Origin: Nitrososphaera sp.
Lineage (GTDB): Archaea > Thermoproteota > Nitrososphaeria > Nitrososphaerales > Nitrososphaeraceae
DNA length: 64,000 nt
Assembly: GCA_039938515.1 (NCBI GenBank)
Contig: JBDUUL010000001.1
Location: forward strand, 1 to 64,000
Direction of reading: 5' to 3'
Both the position numbers and the translations under genes were made by a program. Below are positions 1,843-56,018 of the stretch, piece after piece; the first letter of the stretch is position 1; each line of letters opens with the position of its first letter. A model generated the notes under the pieces. The model saw nothing but the letters and a program-made list of their open reading frames with translations. It did not search any database and was not told the origin of the DNA.

Positions 1843-1932
1843 CGGGCCCGGTGGGCTTCGATCCCACGACTTCCGGCTCTCTTCATGTGAATTTAGAAGG
1901 CAGGCGCTCTGTCCATGCTGAGCTACGAGCCC
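1843..1932 (-). tRNA. tRNA-Arg (anticodon TCT) with a 15-base intron
   Basis: On the minus strand a 7-bp acceptor stem (GGGCTCG with CGGGCCC, one G-T pair), a 4-bp D stem (GCTC/GAGC), a 5-bp T stem (GTGGG/CCCAC) with a 7-base loop and a G discriminator base form a complete tRNA. The anticodon loop reads CTTCTAA with TCT in the anticodon place. Fifteen extra bases follow position 37, the usual archaeal intron site. The CTTC of the loop can pair with GAAG of the intron, as in bulge-helix-bulge substrates. After removing the intron the anticodon stem CCTGC/GCCGG has one T-C mismatch. CCA is not encoded. Confidence 0.85.
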
Positions 1933-54339: not shown

Positions 54340-54573
54340 GTGCGCATTCCCTACCAAGTGCGGCCCGCATCCGTTATTGCCGATAGGGCAAGAAAGCTCA
54401 TCCACAAGTCAAACTTCCAAACGGGCAGTTGCACTCACTGCGGCAGTCCAGCGACCAAGGAGCTGTTATTCAAAGAAAAGGATGGTATTATCATCGAGAG
54501 GTACTGTGACAAGTGCGCAGATGTGATTCTGGCCGGTAAGGAGTTTTTCAAGATAAAGACGTCAGACCTTTGA
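54340..54573 (+). CDS. Zinc-finger protein, 77 residues
   Basis: The product is a short basic helix followed by a four-cysteine knuckle pair (GSCTHCGSPATKE and ERYCDKCADVI). This is a plausible zinc ribbon. The GTG 54340 has a TTTTAAGCC-like box about 30 bases upstream. It has no recognised family. It lies at the point where the chromosomal genes give way to the region of small genes that continues to the right edge, so it may belong to either. Sequence outside the Cys pairs is rich in Lys and Ile, consistent with nucleic-acid binding. Confidence 0.6.
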   Translation: MRIPYQVRPASVIADRARKLIHKSNFQTGSCTHCGSPATKELLFKEKDGIIIERYCDKCADVILAGKEFFKIKTSDL

Positions 54574-54936: not shown

Positions 54937-55164
54937 TTGCATTGCATCCTTTACTGCAACTGGGTCGGACGCAAAGCTGCGAATTTTGGTCCAGACTGGA
55001 AATACTGCGCTCTATGCTGCACCTACTTCAAGCAGAAAGGAGTTAGATGTCCTTGCTGTGGACGGACGCTAAGAGATGCCAGTTATCCGCGCTGTGAAAA
55101 ATGCGGCAGGAAGCTCAAAGCAGGCATTTGCTATTCATGCATGACCAACGGTGAAAAGGGCTAG
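54937..55164 (+). CDS. Multi-cysteine zinc-ribbon protein, 75 residues
   Basis: Three zinc-type knuckles follow each other: YCALCCTYFKQKGVRCPCCG (about 23-42), RCEKCGRKLKAG and ICYSCMT, plus two leading cysteines. It resembles the 65-residue protein encoded at 55821-56018 on the other strand (shared pattern YC..C..F......RCPCC..LR), so the two are paralogues placed face to face. TTG 54937 is the likely start; a GATATAAGG box lies about 27 bases upstream. It lies at the left margin of the element-like region. Role unknown; nucleic-acid binding is likely. Confidence 0.65.
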   Translation: MHCILYCNWVGRKAANFGPDWKYCALCCTYFKQKGVRCPCCGRTLRDASYPRCEKCGRKLKAGICYSCMTNGEKG

Positions 55165-55353: not shown

Positions 55354-55439
55354 GGGAGAGGGGACCTTTGATGAGAAGGCAACCATGCTAGACCAGTTTG
55401 TGTGACCAAGTTTGGCATAACATGACAAGCCCCTCTCCC
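55354..55439. repeat. Perfect 10-bp inverted repeat enclosing nested hairpins (element A)
   Basis: GGGAGAGGGG at 55354-55363 is matched exactly by CCCCTCTCCC at 55430-55439, 66 bases apart. Within lie CCTT/AAGG around a 7-base loop and a longer ATGC/GCAT arm, so the whole could fold as a stem with two side arms. No protein frame of any known family crosses it. It is the first of three such structures between convergent zinc-ribbon genes; the 55165-55820 stretch has no other gene. Confidence 0.6.
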
Positions 55440-55593
55440 AGCTAATGCATTTCTCCGGGAGAGATTTAACTGATTGTTCAATCATTGACCCGCTGTTCGC
55501 TGATTGCCACATTTTGCAACGGTGTATCCTTTTGTTCGCCTTTAGAAATATTTGGCTAATTCGCAGATAACTAACTCGCGCGTCAATTCGCGC

Positions 55594-55646
55594 AAGCAGG
55601 GGTATTGGTTCAATTGAGCTCAAACCTTTGGACTGTGCCCCTGCTT
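55594..55646. repeat. Perfect 9-bp inverted repeat (element B)
   Basis: AAGCAGGGG at 55594-55602 pairs exactly with CCCCTGCTT at 55638-55646, with a 35-base interior. The interior includes a GGTT/AACC pair and the palindrome TTGAGCTCAA at 55614-55623. The T-rich run CTTCTTTT begins at its right end, so on the plus strand it could also end transcription. It is smaller than elements A and C. Confidence 0.6.
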
Positions 55647-55656
55647 CTTTTAATCG

Positions 55657-55740
55657 AAAAGGCGGGCACGTGGTCCTGAATTACAGGAGTCGGACCCCTT
55701 ATGGCAAGTTACCATGCCATTGGACCGTTACCCGCCTTTT
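55657..55740. repeat. Perfect 10-bp inverted repeat enclosing nested hairpins (element C)
   Basis: AAAAGGCGGG at 55657-55666 is matched exactly by CCCGCCTTTT at 55731-55740, 64 bases apart. Inside are a perfect TCCTG/CAGGA hairpin (55674-55688) and an ATGGCA/TGCCAT hairpin (55701-55720); GGTCC (55672-55676) can also pair with GGACC (55722-55726). The fold is again a closing stem with two arms, of almost the same length as element A. The A-run and T-run at its outer ends would let it work as a terminator in both directions, which fits convergent genes, but a simple terminator does not need the interior. Confidence 0.65.
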
Positions 55741-55820
55741 GTCGTGTCGAAACTCTCCACTAACAGCGAGAATGCGGCTATGAAGAGCAGCAACACTACC
55801 GCCTTCTTGGTATTTCTGAG

Positions 55821-56018
55821 CTATCGTATAGTACTCTGTTGGCGCTTTATCATGACTGAATAATTTGCAATCGAGCCACGCCGGAGCATCTGATTGCAGC
55901 AAGGGCACCTGTTAGATTTAGGCAGCCAGAAACACTCGCACCTTGAGCAGTAGGCAAAGCCGCGGCTGTAAGTGCCGCCGCGGATGCCTTCTCTAGAGCA
56001 TAGATTGCAGCAGGTCAT
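55821..56018 (-). CDS. Multi-cysteine zinc-ribbon protein, 65 residues
   Basis: The product has CxxC knuckles in CCNLCSREG, AYCSRCECF and RCPCCNQML, with a short basic tail. It resembles the protein at 54937-55164 in the spacing of the second and third knuckles and the LR after the last. It is the final gene of a run of six minus-strand small genes, starting 5 bases after the stop of the previous one. The function is unknown; the whole run looks like early or regulatory genes of a virus or plasmid. Confidence 0.65.
   Translation of the reverse strand: MTCCNLCSREGIRGGTYSRGFAYCSRCECFWLPKSNRCPCCNQMLRRGSIANYSVMIKRQQSTIR

Follow-up and report, generated by a model that had tools for sequence, protein, structure and literature searches.

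The window, a 64,000-nucleotide stretch of a Nitrososphaera sp. genome, contains three inverted repeats, A, B and C (Table 1), in a region where inspection of open reading frames, whose reach does not extend to very small peptides, found no credible or long frame. Their outer stems of 10, 9 and 10 bp can be read directly from the sequence, as the initial annotation had stated. The arms are GGGAGAGGGG/CCCCTCTCCC in A (11 bp when the flanking T-A pair is counted), AAGCAGGGG/CCCCTGCTT in B and AAAAGGCGGG/CCCGCCTTTT in C. The minus strand is the better folding one for A and C and the plus strand for B; thus oriented, A and B diverge from each other, and B and C converge across the 10 bp between their stems.

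Small zinc-ribbon-like genes flank the cluster on both sides (54340-54573 and 54937-55164, plus strand; 55821-56018, minus strand), and the gene at 54937-55164 has an 85% identical relative at position 270714 of another contig, C15. A provirus-like block starts next door and extends from 56024 to the end of the window and on to about 69866 of the same contig (C1). Judging from translations only, it carries a terminase-like gene, a large tail-like gene and a recombinase-like gene (C1:68577-69866). Elsewhere in the window, a tRNA at 1843-1932 (minus strand, Rfam score 42.5 bits) was missed by ARAGORN; it is 90 nt long and perhaps has an intron.

Table 1. Elements of the A-B-C cluster and associated signals (window coordinates).
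Feature	Position	Strand	Evidence
A: candidate small RNA gene, ~86 nt, outer stem around two hairpins, the second one long (type 1)	55354..55439	-	~12 copies, pairing, strand bias
TATA-like box of A, GTTAAAT on minus, ~26-31 bases ahead of outer stem	55464..55470	-	Position peak and score against controls
Operator-like palindrome AATCATTGA upstream of the A TATA box; family consensus ATCANTGAT	55480..55488	.	Fixed place in most A copies, by eye
TATA-like box of B, AAATATTT	55546..55553	+	Retained in several B copies, ~27 bases ahead of 5' hairpin
B 5' hairpin, GCGCG-TCAATT-CGCGC	55578..55593	+	Compensatory change in copy at C1:81271
B main hairpin; putative small RNA gene spans ~55577-55655	55594..55646	+	5-6 copies, strand bias
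U-rich end of B, TTCTTTTAAT; putative terminator	55645..55654	+	Sequence; similar in other copies
C: core of candidate small RNA gene; outer stem, second stem, two hairpins, loop RGUAAY, UUUU end	55657..55740	-	13 copies, two-sided changes
C 5' region, position of short hairpin; weak here, preceded by no clear TATA box	55741..55772	-	Comparison with other C copies

In both A and C, a single stem encloses two inner hairpins, a fold that is most stable on the minus strand. All three elements are more stable than dinucleotide-shuffled controls on both strands, with z scores (plus, minus) of -3.9 and -4.6 for A, -4.2 and -2.8 for B, and -3.2 and -5.3 for C. As palindromes, on their own merits, they are only mildly unusual. 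Counting perfect inverted repeats with arms of at least 9 and loops of at most 70, the window has 16, where first-order random sequence averages 13.6. Of 40 random windows, 2 had three such repeats with starts no more than 400 bp apart. Without relatives this would be a weak finding, and a case for A, B and C can be made because homologous copies exist, not because of the palindromes alone.

Three repeat families seen so far in one genome

A DNA search of the organism's own genome (2.56 Mb, 24 contigs) found 20 further places. Covariance models built from the first copies raised the number of loci to 12-13 for A, the last few of them weak, and to 13 for C; B has 5-6. The majority lie on contig C15, which makes up 13% of the genome, in stretches poor in long open reading frames (coverage of 34% at C15:240-260 kb). 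Most of the RNA elements are located in the interval C15:240000-260000, which also carries small genes of the response-regulator, winged-helix and zinc-ribbon types.

The order A-B-C recurs at C15:258.6-259.0 kb, with 85% identity across 427 columns; at other loci A lies near C, B accompanies C, or an element stands alone. Genes next to the copies vary in kind, strand and distance, and three C loci are directly upstream of one same small paralogous gene.

At C1:55740, C15:92292 and C15:248036 the C cores agree at 95-96%, and the likeness ends at the stem base. The core at C15:92292 matches that at C1:55740 at 0.95, with flanks at 0.62 and 0.55, and its flanks match those of C15:248036 at 0.62 and 0.57 (random expectation 0.57). 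Near-identical cores thus sit in unrelated flanks, and therefore cores move between contexts, either by gene conversion or by copying of the unit. Other C pairs have in common the 5' flank only, or chiefly the 3' flank: 94694 shares its 5' flank with 272147 (0.93; core 0.98, 3' flank 0.58) and mainly its 3' flank with 243610 (0.93; core 0.77, 5' flank 0.75).

Two other repeats were seen on C15. Family D has four copies (C15:87022, 91460, 270203 and 129905), is structured, folds better on the minus strand, and has a TATA-like CTACTATANTTATAATC in three of the four. Segment E (GGCCAGGGGAGACGCC...), part of which may be coding, is repeated at C15:87980, 92033, 246292 and 253142, often just beyond A.

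In other genomes, the covariance models gave no convincing match among 17 congeners (best E value 0.44). Under stricter filters, which can lose weak matches, no convincing match turned up when the A model was run on 69 further genomes from the family and the C model on 200 further genomes from the order. Exact patterns of the A and C cores, which are strict and were run on GTDB r220 contigs from which the organism's own record was possibly left out, returned none. A 200-kb sample of one congener, small and unmatched, yielded two-copy repeats only as analogous families. The conservation of A, B and C is therefore that of copies inside one genome: the covariation sought in relatives is present as compensatory changes among these copies, and the other species searched showed no orthologues.

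Paired positions, strand and upstream signals

When 13 copies of C are aligned, 90% of cells pair, with changes on both sides in 21 cells at nine pairs. Values this high were reached by 0-1 of 500 shuffles, in an alignment fitted to the model and among copies whose relatedness can inflate such results, and pairing dropped to 30-50% when the partner was slid. The seven-copy seed alignment by itself did not differ significantly from shuffles, 98 of 500 of which reached its number of two-sided pairs. We regard the compensatory support for the predicted C structure as good, not overwhelming. In distant C copies, the third helix appears by eye to have a different stem around an unchanged RGUAAY loop. 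In A, 90% of cells likewise pair, a value that none of 500 shuffles reached, and the 5' hairpin of B has a compensatory change to GCACG/CGTGC at C1:81271.

Changes between copies that keep a pair as G-U on one strand appear as A-C on the other, and can be used to tell the strands apart. In hand alignments, G-U outnumbers A-C by 28 to 4 for C on the minus strand, by 17 to 0 for the B main hairpin on the plus strand (20 to 0 including the 5' hairpin) and by 20 to 4 for A on the minus strand, where the bias is smaller, 16 to 10, on the model alignment. Folding energy favours the same strands: minus in nine of nine copies for C and nine of ten for A, and plus in five of five for B. Because the changes are compensatory and G-U pairs fall mainly on one strand, the elements seem to work as RNA rather than as DNA cruciforms, and RNAs are the one option of the initial annotation to find support here. 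Its remark that A and C have the same shape with different sequence holds loosely, yet the two belong to distinct families, and each has siblings of its own.

TATA-like words upstream of A (minus strand) peak, across copies, between -31 and -28 when counted from the base at which the outer stem begins, and the spacer between box and stem is barely conserved. The mean TATA score at -34 to -22 exceeds that of control positions for A (p<0.0005), B (p 0.02) and C (p 0.03); the C value, counted from the 5' hairpin with start points picked by eye, is the softest of the three. Most C copies have a TATA-like box some 26-31 bases ahead of the putative RNA start and, right before the core, a short hairpin of unrelated sequence. 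This 5' region is more stable than controls (p 0.003), although the copy in the window has a weak one. A palindrome resembling ATCANTGAT, likely to be a regulator site, is placed upstream of the TATA box in most A copies when these are aligned by eye. It had been proposed that A and B lack obvious flanking T-runs on both sides, which is only partly right, given that B on the plus strand is followed by TTCTTTTAAT and A on the minus strand by ACTTTAAC.

Probable small RNA genes and competing explanations

On balance, we think it probable that the cluster consists of three genes for small structured non-coding RNAs, A on minus, B on plus and C on minus, that are transcribed separately and represent three new multicopy families, so far limited to this species. 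In this scenario, each gene would have an archaeal promoter of its own, which is clear for A and B and unseen for the window's C, and would give a product of about 65-120 nt with a long outer stem, inner hairpins and a U-rich 3' end at which transcription may terminate. A factor binding to ATCANTGAT would probably regulate A. By default, the RNAs would most likely act in trans, in regulation or protein binding. Two hallmarks of archaeal intergenic small RNAs are a TATA box about 26 bp ahead of the start, found here for the families as a whole and not clearly for the window's C, and an RNA structure conserved on one strand, found for A, B and C alike.

It is unlikely, in our judgement, that the elements are instead small mobile palindromic units (MITE-, REP- or SINE-like), whose hairpins themselves have spread, with RNA features that either came along as a by-product or help in this spreading. 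Palindromic repeats of the REP and MITE kind are short, dispersed and species-limited, with sharp ends at the stem, and A, B and C share all of these properties. The near-identical C cores in unrelated flanks, with limits at the stem base, are the sharp repeated unit typical of MITE and REP sequences. However, unlike REP and MITE repeats, A, B and C have strand-biased pairing, inner helices with two-sided compensated changes and promoter-like boxes at a fixed distance, and no target duplications were noticed by eye in the flanks inspected.

A role in cis, as a riboswitch, an attenuator or two-way terminators between convergent genes, is improbable. The U-rich ends, the position of the cluster between convergent zinc-ribbon genes and the three C loci just ahead of the same small paralogous gene would agree with such a role. 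A riboswitch or leader should keep a constant place upstream of one kind of gene, whereas the neighbours of the copies are mixed and only those three C loci precede the same gene; moreover, the inner helices and loops are conserved beyond the needs of a terminator, the elements have promoter-like boxes of their own, and no Rfam riboswitch matched. Rfam gave no family at curated scores for A, B or C and nothing credible below them. A likeness of the A plus strand to the SAM-I riboswitch (GATGA..GGCAACC) was discarded, since Rfam returned nothing for it and A is better read on minus. An attenuator on the A plus strand (CTCTCCC..GGGAGAG) was rejected on the grounds that its conserved 'tail' resembles a minus-strand promoter. 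C/D and H/ACA guide RNAs were dismissed by eye for want of proper boxes, and the first C model (R1), on the plus strand, had poor structure and was set aside.

Long perfect outer stems and the adjoining provirus-like block would fit recombination sites folded as single strands, or packaging or replication signals, but we consider this highly improbable, since the copies are dispersed over the chromosome far from that block and carry promoter-like boxes at a fixed distance, the strand-biased G-U pairs favour RNA, and a phage or viral origin found no match in 50,697 phage records or, for the exact core patterns, in the viral contigs searched. No obvious attC-type GTTRRRY/RYYYAAC was seen by eye in the outer arms.

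Relation to known small RNAs and significance

Like sRNA154 of Methanosarcina mazei (PMC5867862) and sRNA132 of Haloferax volcanii (PMC6560208), the small RNA genes proposed here are short, structured and intergenic, apparently with their own promoters. Those two were described as single genes with tested targets, one of them conserved genus-wide, whereas A, B and C are multicopy, species-limited and known here from sequence alone. Several paralogous structured RNA genes per genome are also found in Listeria (LhrC; PMC4132741) and marine Synechococcus (seven Yfr103 paralogues; PMC5069720), which belong to another domain and have no sequence relation to A, B and C; in the present genome, several such families are interleaved and cores are exchanged between flanks.

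It is conceivable, if somewhat doubtful, that A, B, C and probably D form a species-specific system of interleaved multicopy structured RNA families, whose cores pass between different promoters as exact hairpin units, by copying or by swapping, amounting to a combinatorial or self-spreading small-RNA system. We know of no archaeal example of such a system.

The small RNAs of ammonia-oxidising archaea, which are important players in the nitrogen cycle, seem to have been hardly studied, and a 2012 review noted that no thaumarchaeon had been analysed for small RNAs (PMC3432209). If A, B and C are transcribed, they would add a number of new RNA families, rich in siblings within a single genome, for each of which a start, a strand and a structure are predicted. 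That RNA cores are exchanged at the stem base also raises a concrete question, that of how small-RNA families spread.
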